A DNA stretch of 64,000 bases from Beijerinckiaceae bacterium. Lineage in GTDB: Bacteria > Pseudomonadota > Alphaproteobacteria > Rhizobiales > Beijerinckiaceae. Under the pieces are notes generated by a model. It made no database searches and was not told the DNA's origin. It was given only the letters and a program-made list of their open reading frames with translations. Made by a program: the position numbers and the translations under genes. Shown here one piece after another: positions 3,615 through 11,292 of the stretch (position 1 is the stretch's first letter; every line of letters starts with the position of its first letter). The stretch covers positions 1-64,000 of the forward strand of contig JAPZUD010000007.1 in NCBI GenBank assembly GCA_027533425.1, read 5' to 3'.

Positions 3615-5579
3615 ATGAAGCCAGTTGTGATGTTTGCGAAGGCCGTCGATAGCCAGCTTGCCGGCAGGACGGAAGAGGCCAAGACGCTCTACAAGAAGCT
3701 TCTCCGCTACTATCCCAATTCGTCGGAAGTGCTCGGAAACCTCGCGGTTCTGGTCAAGAAGGACGGCCATGTCCAGCTCGCGGAGCAGATGCTCCAGCGG
3801 GCGATCCGGGCCAATCCGGAGAATTTCTCCGCCCTGACCACGCTGGCCAATATCAAGCTTGCCGAAAAGAATTTTGCCGAAGCCAAGCGCTTCAATGACA
3901 TGGCCCTGAACATCGAGCCGGAAAACCCGGATGCGATGGTCAACGAGGGCGTTCTGCTGATCCGCGACAACAAGCTCGATGAAGCGGAATGGTATTTCTG
4001 GCAGGCGATGCAGCGTGATTCGCGGCACGCCACCGCGCGCATGAACTTCGCCAATGTCCGCCGTCTGAAGCGCGACAATCTCGATGCGTCGATCGACATG
4101 CTGAAATCGGTCGCGGCGCAGGATCCCGAGAACACCATCGTCCATCTGATGATCTGCGCCGCCAACCAGGATGCGCAGCACTATGTCGAGGCGCTGCGGG
4201 CTGCGGAACGGGCGCTGGAAATCACCAAGGGCGAGAGCGAGGAAGCGCTGAACGCCATGGCAACCTCGCACGTGATCCTCGGCGAGCTCGAGGAGGCGAT
4301 GAGCTATTACGAGCGCTCACAGGCCATCGACCCGACCAACGTGGCCACCGGCACCGCCTATCTGTTCACGATCAACTACGATGACCGGAAGACCCAGGAA
4401 CAGGTCTTCCAGGAATACCAGCGCCTTGCTGCGCTGCTCTCGAAGGACAAGAAACAGTATTCACACAGGCTGCGTCCGCCGGTGAAGGATCGCCGGATCC
4501 GGATCGGCTATTCCTCCCCGGACTTCTACACGCACGTCGTGTCATACTTCATCGAGCCGATCCTCCGGAACCATGACCGTTCGAAGTTCGAGATCTTCGC
4601 CTATGCAAACGTGATCAAGCCGGACGAGCACACGGTCTATTTCAAGAAATTCTTCGACAAATGGGTCGACGTGGTCCAGATGAGCGACGAGGAAATGGCG
4701 GCGCAGATCAAGGCCGACGATATCGACATCCTGATCGACCTTGCCGGCCATACCCACGGCAACCGTCTGCCCGTCTTCGCGATGAAGCCGGCCCCGATCC
4801 AGGCGACCTATCTCGGATTCGGCTACACAACCGGCTTCGAGCAGATGGACTACTTTATCGGCGACAAGAACTTCTGCCCGCCGGGCTCGGACCCCTATTT
4901 CAGCGAGACCGTCCTGAACATCGAGGCGCCGGTCTATGCCTATAATCCGCCGCGCCATCGTGCCGCGGATATCGTGCCGCCGCCGGCCCTGTCGAAGGGC
5001 TATGTCACCTTCGGCACGATGACCCGCATGATCCGCCTCAACAACCGGCTTCTTGCAGTCTGGCGCGAGATCCTCGAACGCGTGCCCGGAAGCAAGCTGC
5101 GCTTCGACCAGAAGACCTTCGATGACCCGGATACCGTTGAGCGCTTCTACCAGCGGCTCGAAGGGCTGGGCTATGATCGGTCCCGCGTCGATCTGGTCAG
5201 CACACCCGAGCACTGGAACGGCTACAAGGAATTCGACATCGCCCTCGATTGCTGGCCGCATAATGCCGGCACCACGACCTTCGAGGCGCTGTTCTCCGGC
5301 GTTCCCGTGATCTCCAAGCGTGACCGCGTCTCGGTCGGCCGCCTGAGCGACATGGTGCTGGAGCCGCTCGGCCTTGGCGACTGGGTTGCCGATACCGAGC
5401 AGCAGTTCATCGACCTCGCCGTCAAGCTGGCCTCGGATGTCCCGGCCCTGGCGGAAATCCGCTCGACCCTGCGTGACCGGATGAACGAGAGCGCGTTCTT
5501 CGACTTCAAGGCCCGCGCCCGCGGCCTCGAGGAAGGCTTTATCGAAATGGTCCGCCGCTACAACGAGGAGCGCGCATGA
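3615..5579 (+). CDS. TPR-containing GT41 (OGT/SPINDLY-type) O-linked glycosyltransferase, probable flagellin glycosyltransferase
   Basis: The 654-residue product has TPR repeats over about residues 5-260. The catalytic GT41 region follows: [12 protein letters not shown]2-H (candidate catalytic His near residue 305), [22 protein letters not shown] and [17 protein letters not shown]. The enzyme would transfer a sugar from a nucleotide-sugar donor to Ser/Thr of a protein substrate in the cytoplasm. The ATG at 3615 has GGAG 6 bp upstream and is preferred to a TTG 24 bp earlier. It lies right after two flagellins and overlaps rfbF by ATGA, so flagellin is the likely acceptor (inference). The position that aligns by eye with the pyrophosphate-binding Lys842 of human OGT is Arg474. 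Confidence 0.88.
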
Positions 5580-6346
5580 AAGCTGTGATCCTTGCGGGTG
5601 GCCTCGGCACCCGCATCTCGGAAGAGACACATCTGCGACCCAAGCCGATGATCGAGATCGGCGGGAAGCCGATCCTCTGGCACATCATGAAGATGTACTC
5701 GTCCCACAATGTGAACGAGTTCGTGATCTGCTGTGGTTACAAGGGCTACCTGATCAAGGAATACTTCCAGAATTACTTCCTGCACATGTCGGATGTCACG
5801 TTCGACATGGCGAAGAACCGGATGGAAGTGCATCGCGAACAGGCCGAGCCCTGGCGCGTCACGCTGGTCGATACCGGCGAGGACACGATGACCGGCGGGC
5901 GTCTCCGCCGTGTCGCCCGCTACCTCCGCGACGAGGAGGCCTTCTGCTTCACCTATGGCGATGGTGTTTCGAGTGTCGACATCTCGGCCACCCTGGCCTT
6001 CCATCGCGATCACGGCAAGCTGGCCACGGTCACGGCCGTGCTGCCGCCGGGACGCTTCGGCTCGCTCGGCCTCGAGGGCGAAAAGGTGACGGGCTTCATC
6101 GAGAAGCCGCGCGGGGAAGGCGGCTGGATCAATGGCGGCTTCTTCGTCCTCTCGCCCCGGGTCATTGACCTGATCGAGGGCGATTCGATGAGCTGGGAAG
6201 TCGAACCCATGCGGGCCCTTGCCGCCTCTGACCAGTTGCGTGCCTTCCAGCATGATGGCTTCTGGCAACCGATGGATACCCTGCGCGAGAAGAACCTTCT
6301 CGAGGATCTCTGGGCCTCGGGCAAGGCGCCGTGGAAGACATGGTAG
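5576..6346 (+). CDS. rfbF: Glucose-1-phosphate cytidylyltransferase
   Basis: The 256-residue product makes CDP-glucose from CTP and glucose-1-phosphate, the first step to CDP-linked 6-deoxyhexoses. The N-terminal nucleotidyltransferase signature is clear: [26 protein letters not shown] is spread over residues 6-31, followed by [33 protein letters not shown] around residue 125 holds the metal-binding Asp. Length and motifs match the RfbF/DdhA family. It overlaps the preceding gene by ATGA and the next by 7 bp, so it is translationally coupled. Its presence, rather than an RmlA, makes the pathway CDP-linked. Confidence 0.95.
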
Positions 6347-7404
6347 CCACCGCCTCGCCAGAATTCTGGCGCGGCAGGCGCATTCTGCTCACCGGCCATA
6401 CCGGCTTCAAGGGAGGCTGGGCCGCCCTGTGGCTCGCCCGGATGGGCGCGGAGGTGACCGGCATCGCCCTCGCGCCGAATACCCGGCCGGACCTGTTCGG
6501 CAAGCTCGAACTCGCGCGGCAGATCGACAGCCATCTCATCGACATCCGCGACCGCGAGGCCCTTGCCGGCCGCATCCGGGCCGCCCGGCCGGAAATCGTG
6601 CTGCACATGGCCGCCCAGCCGCTGGTGCGCGCCAGCTACCGTGAGCCGGTCGAGACCTTTGCGACCAACGTGATGGGCACCGTGCACCTGCTGGAAGCCC
6701 TGCGCGGCCTCGCCGGCTGCCGCGTGGCCGTCATGGTCACGACCGACAAGGTCTACCACAATCTCGAGCATCCCTATCCCTACCGCGAGGATGATGCGCT
6801 CGGCGGCTATGACCCTTACAGCGCAAGCAAGGGCGCGAGCGAGATTGTCATCGCCAGCTACCGCGATTCCTTCCTCCGCGCCGAGGGCATGGCCGTGGCC
6901 TCCGCCCGTGCCGGCAATGTCATCGGCGGCGGGGACTGGTCCGAGGACCGGCTGATCCCGGATGCCGTGCGGGCCTGGCTCGCCGGCACCACGCTGGAGA
7001 TCCGCCGCCCGAACGCCATCCGGCCCTGGCAACATGTTCTCGAGCCGGTCAACGCCTATCTCGTTCTCGCCGAACGGCTCTGGGCTGAGCCGGCTCTCGC
7101 GGGGGCCTACAATATCGGGCCGCATACCCATGAGGCGGCCACCGTCCGCGATGTGATCGAGCAGGCGCGCACGCATTTCCCGCAGGCCGCCGTGCAATAC
7201 GGCGACGGCACGGCCGGCCCGCATGAAGCCGGCTGGCTGGCGCTGGAAACCGCCCGCGCGCGGACGCAGCTCGGCATCCGGCCGCGCTGGGATATTGCCG
7301 AAAGCATTGCCCGCACCATGGCCTGGTATCGCGCCGAGGCGGAAGGCCAATCCGCAACCGCGCTGTGCGATGCCGATCTCCGCGCCTTCACGGAGGCCGC
7401 ATGA
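6340..7404 (+). CDS. rfbG: CDP-glucose 4,6-dehydratase
   Basis: This short-chain dehydrogenase/reductase enzyme converts CDP-glucose to CDP-4-keto-6-deoxyglucose. The NAD-binding loop GHTGFKGGW is near residues 18-26. TTDKVYHN and the catalytic YSASK (Y-x3-K) lie near residues 130-160. [12 protein letters not shown], diagnostic of this family within the extended SDRs, is near residue 228. The ATG at 6340 overlaps rfbF; an in-frame GTG at 6331 is an alternative. It forms the committed pair with rfbF. Confidence 0.94.
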
Positions 7405-10502: not shown

Positions 10503-10512
10503 GGGAGGCACC

Positions 10513-11292
10513 ATGGACCCCGTCAAACAATTCGCCGAAGAACGCCTGGCGCGCCTCGAAGCCTATCAGGGCGATACCGAGTTCCGGCAGCTCTCGCAGG
10601 CCTGGCTCGAATCCTCGATGCGGAAGAAATACGTCTACAATTTCGACTGGCTCGGCCGCCCGATCATCCAGTATCCGCAGGATATGTGGGCCGTGCAGGA
10701 GCTGATCTGGCAGATCAAGCCGGATCTCGTGATCGAGACGGGCATTGCCCATGGCGGGTCACTGATCCTCAGCGCCAGCATCCTTGCCATGCTCGATTAT
10801 TGCGACGCCATGGCCGCCGGCACCACGCTTGAGCCCCGCAAGACGAAGCGCAAGGTCATCGGCATCGATATCGATATCCGGCCGCATAACCGGGCCGCGC
10901 TGGATGCCCATCCGCTGCGGCCGATGCTGCATCTCGTCGAGGGTTCGAGCATCGCGCCCGAGACGGTCGCCGCGGTCAAGGCCGCCGCCGCCGGCCACAA
11001 GACCGTGATGGTCTTCCTCGATTCGATGCACACCCATGCCCATGTGCTGGCCGAACTCGAGGCCTATGCCCCGATGGTCTCGAAAGGCAGCTATTGCGTG
11101 GTCTTCGATTCCTTTGTCGAAGACATGCCGGCTGATCTGTTCCCGGACCGCCCCTGGTCGCCCGGCGACAACCCGATGACGGCGATGCGTGAATACCTCA
11201 AGGGGCATCCGGAATTCGTGATCGACAAGTCGATCGAGGGCCGGCTGATGGTCACCGTGGCCGCCCAGGGCTTCCTCAAGCGGACAGGCTGA
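10513..11292 (+). CDS. CmcI/rhamnosyl O-methyltransferase-like protein
   Basis: The 259-residue protein belongs to the cephalosporin hydroxylase (CmcI) family, a class I SAM methyltransferase fold. DLVIETGIAHGGS near residue 75 is the SAM-binding motif I, IGIDIDIRPHN holds the ribose-binding acid, and VFLDSMHTHAHV is the metal/active-site region. Members near sugar operons are O-methyltransferases. It probably methylates a sugar hydroxyl. AGGGAGG lies just upstream of the ATG. It is the last gene of the operon. The 143 bp to flbT show no clear terminator. Confidence 0.8.
   Translation: MDPVKQFAEERLARLEAYQGDTEFRQLSQAWLESSMRKKYVYNFDWLGRPIIQYPQDMWAVQELIWQIKPDLVIETGIAHGGSLILSASILAMLDYCDAMAAGTTLEPRKTKRKVIGIDIDIRPHNRAALDAHPLRPMLHLVEGSSIAPETVAAVKAAAAGHKTVMVFLDSMHTHAHVLAELEAYAPMVSKGSYCVVFDSFVEDMPADLFPDRPWSPGDNPMTAMREYLKGHPEFVIDKSIEGRLMVTVAAQGFLKRTG

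Follow-up and report, generated by a model that had tools for sequence, protein, structure and literature searches.

A predicted flagellin glycosylation island with genes for a CDP-linked, methylated branched sugar and a GT41 transferase in Beijerinckiaceae

Introduction

Which sugar would be made by a row of eight closely packed genes inserted at a flagellin locus of a Beijerinckiaceae bacterium, and where would it go? The genes occupy positions 3615-11292 on the forward strand of a window of 64,000 nucleotides (nt), the whole stretch analysed here, which is the start of contig C4 (JAPZUD010000007.1) in a 3.75 Mb genome (GCA_027533425.1) and to which the coordinates given without a locus name refer. 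Taken as a whole, the best explanation of the sequences, to which we give a probability of roughly 0.7, is a flagellin glycosylation island, in which a cytidine diphosphate (CDP)-linked methylated branched sugar would be made and then transferred to flagellin by an enzyme of family GT41.

Results and discussion

Organization of the locus

All eight open reading frames (ORFs) are intact, without inner stops, and the seven junctions between them measure, in order, -4, -16, -4, -4, -4, -4 and +10 nt. The ORF coordinates thus confirm what a first-pass annotation, made from the sequence alone, had described as eight packed genes between flagellins and flbT-flaF with six of seven junctions overlapping, and Pfam and NCBIfam return the same gene families as it had given. 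Upstream stands a flagellin gene (1753-3339), the presumed acceptor, 275 nt before the GT41 gene (3615-5579), and further upstream a second flagellin ORF (98-1417), cut by the contig end; downstream follow flbT, a flagellin regulator (11436-11876), and the flagellar gene flaF (11812-12234), all of them on the forward strand. A transferase and sugar genes are therefore inserted at the flagellin locus, which is what defines such an island. A promoter/terminator scan found no promoter-like site, and terminators were at chance level. The window opens at a contig end within flagellin, and flagellin pieces also terminate contigs C7, C8 and C10 of the same genome, showing that the flagellin array is broken by the assembly.

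Enzymes of the predicted sugar pathway

The first two sugar genes point to CDP as the nucleotide. The glucose-1-phosphate cytidylyltransferase RfbF (5576-6346) reaches 465 bits with TIGR02623 (cut-off 300) and matches PDB 1tzf with E 2e-128, and the CDP-glucose 4,6-dehydratase RfbG (6331-7404) reaches 461 bits with TIGR02622 (cut-off 278) and matches PDB 1rkx with E 6e-106. In addition, RfbG carries TDK and YSASK, in agreement with TDK...YxxxK, which a review describes as the pattern of CDP-glucose dehydratases (PMC8987622). Since both proteins exceed CDP-specific equivalog cut-offs, a deoxythymidine diphosphate (dTDP) or guanosine diphosphate (GDP) linkage of the sugar is rejected, and the earlier assignment of the pair to CDP-4-keto-6-deoxyglucose synthesis is well supported as a prediction.

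A further enzyme is a TylC3/TcaB9-type sugar 3-C-methyltransferase (7958-9184), in which the zinc-binding, methyltransferase and C-terminal domains are all present (PF08421, PF13489, PF08484) and the Y-x-E-H motif is kept as YHEH at residue 214. Its best solved relatives, which match it over the full length, are the sugar 3-C-methyltransferase 5t6b (E 3e-71, 406 residues), mycarose 3-C-methyltransferase and TcaB9, so that the TylC3-like assignment of the first-pass annotation stands. These solved relatives act on dTDP-sugars. A comparable 3-C-methyl-6-deoxyhexose, made by way of a TylCIII-type methyltransferase, is known from the virenose pathway of Coxiella burnetii, which differs in that the sugar, as far as described, is proposed to be GDP- or TDP-linked and is bound for lipopolysaccharide (LPS) (PMC3539893). 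A virenose-type route was set aside on account of the GDP or TDP used there.

The remaining genes encode modifying enzymes. The RmlC-like 3,5- or 5-epimerase (7401-7961) has 188 bits with PF00908 and stays below the TIGR01221 equivalog cut-off (140.6 versus 155.75 bits), and it is therefore not filed as a dTDP-RmlC. A left-handed beta-helix (LbH) acyltransferase with Hexapep repeats (9181-9669) probably O-acetylates the sugar. Next come a short-chain dehydrogenase/reductase (SDR; 9666-10502; Epimerase, RmlD_sub_bind, YNLSK), presumably a 4-ketoreductase, on which a weak Glyco_trans_4_4 match below cut-off was disregarded, and an O-methyltransferase (OMT) of the CmcI/rhamnosyl-O-methyltransferase type (10513-11292; PF04989, 306 bits), presumed to methylate O2. 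The OMT lies far below NF045824, the mycobacterial rhamnosyl-OMT equivalog (88.7 versus 400 bits), and has only the Pfam family in common with it. The Pfam scan found no glycosyltransferase family other than GT41 among the eight genes, and the genome as a whole has one GT41 gene, one RfbG over cut-off and one C-methyltransferase (E <= 1e-60), all within the operon.

Conservation of the island in the genus

The genus comparison covers 17 genomes, namely the window's own and 16 others. The whole set from flagellin to FlaF is found on one contig in 6 of the 16; in SD176 (Rhabdaerophilum sp., G511) the part from GT41 to FlaF is complete with flagellin on another contig, and in one further genome the island is cut by a contig end. 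The six full sets and the near-complete one of SD176, together with the seven-gene order in other classes described below, show that the conservation of the operon is more than chance. The cassette of G331 is split, with GT41, RfbF, LbH and OMT at the flagellin locus and RfbG, C-methyltransferase, RmlC and SDR grouped at another place, which is what membership in one pathway would predict. In G502 and G500, GT41 and cassette genes stand at different places, G502 being an odd case, which has RfbG, RmlC, an OMT of CmcI type and a divergent methyltransferase whose C-terminal domain is matched in part. Despite being unlinked, GT41 and RfbG are both retained in these three genomes. On the whole, GT41 is present in 16 of the 17 genomes and RfbG over cut-off likewise in 16, and both are absent from the same one, G189, which yet has four flagellins plus flbT-flaF. 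This single joint loss is of little statistical weight.

In two genus members, remnants of flagellin lie between GT41 and the complete flagellin gene (L135:7594-7950, L132:5787-6096). Small cysteine-rich ORFs lie by flbT in genus members (L136:10867-11445, L137:6925-7548, L142:11848-12435, L143:8489-9067), and the one that was scanned has no Pfam match at 1e-10.

Co-divergence of GT41 and flagellin

The divergence of GT41 and flagellin was compared in 13 of the 17 genomes, leaving out G501 (a contig end interrupts its flagellin), G502 and G500 (cassette unlinked to flagellin) and G189 (no GT41), as well as the unlinked RfbG, C-methyltransferase, RmlC and SDR copies of G331; for G354 the full-length flagellin was taken and not the nearer remnant, and for SD176 the partial flagellin gene that ends another contig. 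The distance correlation is 0.90 for GT41 with flagellin versus 0.33 for GT41 with RfbF, and with the mean of RfbF, FlbT, OMT, C-methyltransferase and RfbG held constant the partial Mantel correlation of GT41 with flagellin is 0.88 (0 of 5000 permutations). The correlation is strongest with the flagellin middle (0.91), with 0.40 for the N-terminal part (110/5000). Flagellin does not follow the sugar genes, for which the values are 0.02 (C-methyltransferase, 2169/5000), 0.04 (SDR) and -0.04 (RfbG).

The comparison of SD176 with the window gives the same picture at the level of single genes. RfbF, RfbG, RmlC, C-methyltransferase, LbH, OMT and FlbT are 94-99% identical, SDR 90% and FlaF 93%, while GT41 is 51% and flagellin 65% identical; the GT41 and flagellin of SD176 are nearest to those of G507 (85% and 90%). 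DNA identity is 0.45-0.70 across the GT41 gene and 0.86-0.96 in the bins of 5750-11999, and the shift (0.48 at 5550-5574, 0.80 at 5575-5599, 1.00 at 5600-5624) falls at the four-base overlap of GT41 and rfbF. Within the genus, transferase and flagellin therefore appear to have been exchanged as a matched pair with the sugar cassette held constant.

The chief objection is that flagellin and GT41 are neighbours, so that one recombination tract could explain the paired exchange. The co-divergence would then reflect physical linkage within that tract and have no bearing on matching, an explanation we regard as possible but the less probable one. It is favoured by the 275 nt between the two genes in the window and by the fact that G507 and SD176 represent one allele type, for which a single transfer could account; the adjacency of flagellin and island, which lie on different contigs in SD176, is assumed there. 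Against it, the change of identity sits at the GT41/rfbF overlap, and GT41 correlates most strongly with the middle of flagellin and weakly with its N-terminal part. Linkage alone can give such a pattern and partial Mantel tests are liberal; we therefore claim just that GT41 is likely to be functionally matched to the neighbouring flagellin. Flagellin as the target, as the first-pass annotation had it, is thus supported by sequence comparison on three sides, namely the conserved position in the genus, the joint absence of GT41 and RfbG in 1 of 17 genomes, and the co-divergence.

Spread of the cassette and its link to flagellin

A synteny search beyond the genus, which had been suggested with the original annotation, shows that the seven sugar genes recur near flagellin elsewhere, including Azotobacter vinelandii CA. 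We took the loci of the best 80 of 320 named C-methyltransferase relatives, chosen by likeness to the window C-methyltransferase, and because of this choice the share standing beside flagellin is not a general rate. Within about 10 kb, as far as contig ends allow, these 80 have RfbF and RfbG in 70, OMT in 54, GT41 in 36, flagellin in 28, and flagellin together with GT41 in 26. Among the 51 of them that are at least 20 kb long, 22 have flagellin and GT41, one flagellin only, one GT41 only, and 27 neither (Fisher p 3e-12). With one locus kept per group and the window's genus excluded, the same categories number 7, 1, 1 and 19 (p 5e-5); groups were typed from record titles and the first locus was kept, so that Undibacterium is represented by a locus with flagellin and GT41, though two Undibacterium loci have neither. 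On a C-methyltransferase tree of 79 named loci and the window (L355, with a stop in frame, being omitted), flagellin linkage changes six times and GT41 linkage five times.

These data bear on the alternative that the CDP-sugar is meant for LPS or exopolysaccharide (EPS) and stands beside flagellin by accident. RfbF-RfbG-C-methyltransferase-RmlC modules are indeed common away from flagellin, as the 27 of 51 loci with neither flagellin nor GT41 demonstrate. Furthermore, among 20 OMT regions across the phylum the C-methyltransferase is present in 19, with flagellin in the fetched stretches of 5 and not found in those of the other 15, from which it follows that the sugar is not made for flagellin alone. 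Nevertheless, we consider the accidental placement quite improbable: the eight genes hold no glycosyltransferase family besides GT41, the position between flagellin and flbT-flaF is kept in the genus, GT41 and RfbG are missing from one and the same genome, and 22 of the 23 cassette loci of at least 20 kb with flagellin within 10 kb also have GT41. On the same evidence, LPS or EPS as the sole destination was judged unlikely.

In the family of A. vinelandii, flagellin was found in eight of the nine genomes with the OMT. One of the pseudomonad-family islands encodes, at L246:10993-16209, a 1738-residue protein that by eye reads like a GT2 enzyme in the place of GT41.

A donor-site signature of the GT41 enzymes

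Can the GT41 enzyme use a CDP-sugar? The window protein reaches 156.2 bits with PF13844 (cut-off 25), with tetratricopeptide repeats (TPRs) in front of the SPY/OGT-like catalytic domain, and its best solved relatives are SPY (8dtf, E 6e-87) and then OGT-like proteins. The closest of these, SPINDLY, is a protein O-fucosyltransferase, and therefore the family is not bound to uridine diphosphate (UDP)-sugars. Two residues of the SPY donor site matter here: the essential K665, in contact with the phosphates, and Y744 (C917 in OGT), which gives the pocket for the donor sugar its shape (PMC9715652). In a hand-read alignment whose residues were checked, window H307 and T553 align with SPY H495 and T748, which are thus kept, whereas R474 takes the place of K665 and H549 that of Y744. 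The essential lysine of OGT/SPY type is hence absent from the window GT41, whose donor site reads R471, R474 and D545-C-W-P-H549-N, and the arginine in its place, R474, is invariant in 18 selected aligned relatives.

We followed these residues through a set of 144 unique catalytic domains of GT41, collected for their similarity to the window GT41 and C-methyltransferase; 13 of them, in which the signature is not covered, were counted as having none. The full signature (DC[WF]PHN) is present in 40 of the 44 domains within 1 kb of RfbF versus 9 of the 100 others, and arginine at the position of SPY Lys665 in 43 of the 44, while just 1 of 68 lysine-type domains lies within 1 kb of RfbF. The nine distant signature domains comprise four in tandem arrays upstream of RfbF (L312, L298) and five without RfbF in the locus, whose genomes (G500, G502, G135, G433) have RfbF elsewhere. 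Eleven arginine-type domains lack the full signature, none of them within 1 kb of RfbF and ten without RfbF in the locus; arginine alone is therefore no marker. A quick tree needs two changes for the signature, and judged by sequence the 40 of the 44 RfbF-proximal domains are one subfamily. RfbF anywhere in the genome was tried as a requirement for signature GT41s and found non-discriminating: with or without the signature, RfbF over cut-off is present in 12 of the 13 genomes searched, G189 being the exception.

A rival explanation has GT41 attach a common first sugar, such as N-acetylglucosamine (GlcNAc), with an enzyme encoded elsewhere adding the CDP-sugar on top. Flagellin glycans are often oligosaccharides (PMC3958885), and in A. 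vinelandii a GT2 domain is fused to the GT41, which has retained the lysine of OGT/SPY type. We think this unlikely for the window, in view of the 44 GT41 domains that start within 1 kb of RfbF, 40 of them with the donor-site signature, and of the operon, in which no gene for a second transferase was found.

Very long ORFs with tandem GT41 domains also occur (L317:216-7607, L312:223-5202, L148:6194-15650), one example being 2463 residues upstream of RfbF in a Rhodoferax metagenome-assembled genome. Flagellin-linked GT41s with an N-terminal S-adenosylmethionine-dependent methyltransferase domain are found in Bordetella genomosp. 5 (L302:4104-7625) and Achromobacter (L323:4227-7628), and resemble the enterobacterial ones as these are described (PMC4875605).

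Evidence against the proposed explanation

Several results weigh against the explanation as a whole. Three genus members have islands in which LbH was not detected, and RmlC was not detected in that of G302 (R. calidifontis), which has two RmlC homologues of 41-43% elsewhere in the genome. The Ser/Thr content of the flagellin middle is 0.203 in G189 versus 0.198-0.245 in its GT41-bearing relatives; with the G189 value inside their range, Ser/Thr richness is uninformative as a sign of glycosylation. A phylogenetic sign test of the association between flagellin and GT41 gives p 0.5, having two supported independent pairs, and with so few it cannot reach significance. In five of the eight pseudomonad-family islands with cassette and flagellin, no GT41 was found in the fetched regions. 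Finally, A. vinelandii and G744 have lysine-type GT41s without the signature near their cassettes, so that the signature is a marker of one transferase lineage but not of all enzymes that use the sugar. Even so, an O-methylated, perhaps O-acetylated, CDP-activated 3-C-methyl-6-deoxyhexose moved to flagellin by GT41, as first proposed from the letters of the window, agrees with the comparative tests and is supported at this level.

Azotobacter vinelandii and the proposed identity of the sugar

The occurrence in A. vinelandii CA (G908) suggests a name for the product. This genome has RfbF, RfbG, RmlC, C-methyltransferase, LbH, SDR and OMT in the order of the window, with identities of 76, 68, 60, 72-73, 76, 51 and 60%, respectively, and a flagellin about 6 kb beyond the cassette. 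Between the two (L241:11136-16956) lie a 1257-residue GT41-GT2 fusion, a PhyH dioxygenase gene and a TylF-type methyltransferase, and together they hint at a larger flagellin glycan in A. vinelandii. Nearby lie genes of the MotA/MotB and sigma-70 types and genes with receiver domains, their flagellar names being our own reading.

CDP-vinelose, CDP-6-deoxy-3-C-methyl-2-O-methyl-L-talose, is reported to have been isolated from A. vinelandii in the 1960s. Because the seven-gene order is shared with this presumed source, a vinelose-type product is proposed, and the genes would then be those of a compound to which no genes have been linked in the literature searched. The predicted chemistry of the seven genes fits vinelose, since they would provide a dehydration, methylation at C3, epimerisation of C5 into the L series, reduction at C4 and an O-methylation. 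Vinelose leaves a single gene unaccounted for, that of the acetyltransferase: in its presumed structure the sugar bears no O-acetyl group, yet A. vinelandii has the acyltransferase gene as well. For the O2 position the argument comes from a mycobacterial enzyme of the OMT family, which we presume to methylate there. The accessible text on that enzyme does not state the position (PMC3594219). It also speaks against the assignment that no mention of vinelose was found in the open-access literature searched, the link of the species to CDP-vinelose being our assumption. In sum, vinelose is our preferred identity at about even odds.

The same island and transferase might instead serve another isomer, such as 2-O-methyl-3-C-methyl-rhamnose, a sugar methylated at O4 or, where RmlC is missing, a D-sugar, and we hold such an isomer to be a serious possibility, if somewhat short of an even one. 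Homology leaves the stereochemistry of the SDR and the O-methyl position unfixed, the OMT score is far from that of the rhamnosyl-OMT equivalog, and the island of G302 is one in which RmlC was not detected. In favour of vinelose itself, besides the gene order of its presumed source, its assumed structure calls for just those additional steps that RmlC, SDR and OMT would carry out.

The pathway to a vinelose-type sugar may be drawn as follows. RfbF would make CDP-glucose and RfbG CDP-4-keto-6-deoxyglucose, both with strong family evidence. The C-methyltransferase would methylate C3, the order and position being those we infer, the RmlC-like enzyme would epimerise C5 and perhaps C3, the SDR would reduce C4, the CmcI-type enzyme would methylate one hydroxyl, probably O2, and the acyltransferase would probably add acetyl. 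The product would be a CDP-activated 6-deoxy-3-C-methyl-O-methyl-hexose, in the simplest case CDP-vinelose or its acetate. By analogy with FlmG of Caulobacter crescentus, the TPR half of GT41 would bind the product of the neighbouring flagellin gene, and the catalytic half would transfer the sugar from the CDP carrier to Ser/Thr while flagellin is still in the cytoplasm and not yet exported.

As a wider proposal, which we put forward tentatively and at less than even odds, the GT41 subfamily with R-x-x-R and DC[WF]PHN, in alpha- and beta-proteobacteria and some others, may put CDP-3-C-methyl-6-deoxyhexoses on flagellin; the orphan metabolite CDP-vinelose may be the flagellar donor of A. vinelandii, used by a GT41 outside the signature; and the window operon may be the first complete gene set assigned to that metabolite.

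Relation to known flagellin glycosylation systems

FlmG is a soluble protein whose N-terminal TPRs bind flagellin and whose C-terminal domain is of GT-B type, and it is required and sufficient for flagellin O-glycosylation once the donor sugar is made (PMC7591256). The window GT41 is like it, by description, in its TPR N-terminal and GT-B C-terminal halves and in adjoining flagellin genes, and differs in the donor, which for FlmG is pseudaminic acid (PMC7591256). One flbT-flaF-linked GT41 (L156), which resembles FlmG in position only, has lysine and PYTGG where the signature would stand. In enterobacteria, a 2016 survey (De Maayer and Cowan, PMC4875605) lists 11 flagellin-island enzymes of family GT41, for which GlcNAc is a guessed donor, and genes for CDP-4-keto-6-deoxyglucose in a single island type (type 23, 4 strains). 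These islands share with ours the flagellin locus and GT41 (SPINDLY-domain) transferases, many with methyltransferase domains, and in some cases WbbJ-type acetyltransferases; as far as they are described there, they differ in that no C-methyltransferase is named, the use of a CDP sugar by GT41 is not stated, and GlcNAc derivatives are suggested (PMC4875605).

The first-pass annotation had held that no flagellin glycan built from a CDP sugar by an OGT-like enzyme is described. In the open-access literature searched, we indeed came upon neither a C-methylated sugar on flagellin nor a GT41 enzyme described as using a CDP-sugar, and to that extent the statement holds; the wider novelty does not, with GT41 flagellin islands and a CDP-4-keto-6-deoxyglucose type published in 2016 and FlmG known. 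It is further tempered by CDP-vinelose, presumably an already known CDP-linked branched sugar. The locus is therefore best seen as a real island of a known kind, in which the predicted combination of a CDP-linked, C-methylated and O-methylated deoxyhexose with a GT41 transferase is new.

If true, this would provide genes and a destination for the nucleotide sugar CDP-vinelose, to which the literature searched assigns no pathway, and CDP-branched sugars would join UDP-GlcNAc (OGT) and GDP-fucose (SPY) among the donors of OGT-like protein glycosyltransferases. The donor-site signature offers a testable handle on the choice of nucleotide sugar by GT41 enzymes, and flagellin recognition by TPR transferases has a natural experiment in this genus, where flagellin and transferase appear to have been exchanged while the sugar cassette stayed constant. 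The island recurs in culturable, harmless bacteria, namely Rhabdaerophilum, Azotobacter and Undibacterium.

Additional observations

The A. vinelandii CA genome has three nitrogenase reductases over cut-off, and its NifH is identical to PDB 1fp6 over the 275 residues compared. Elsewhere in the window, a G+C-rich tandem repeat with a 36-base unit in 2.6 copies lies at 30409-30500, about 500 bases from a tRNA-His gene, and a thiamine pyrophosphate (TPP) riboswitch at 38845-38948 exceeds the gathering score.

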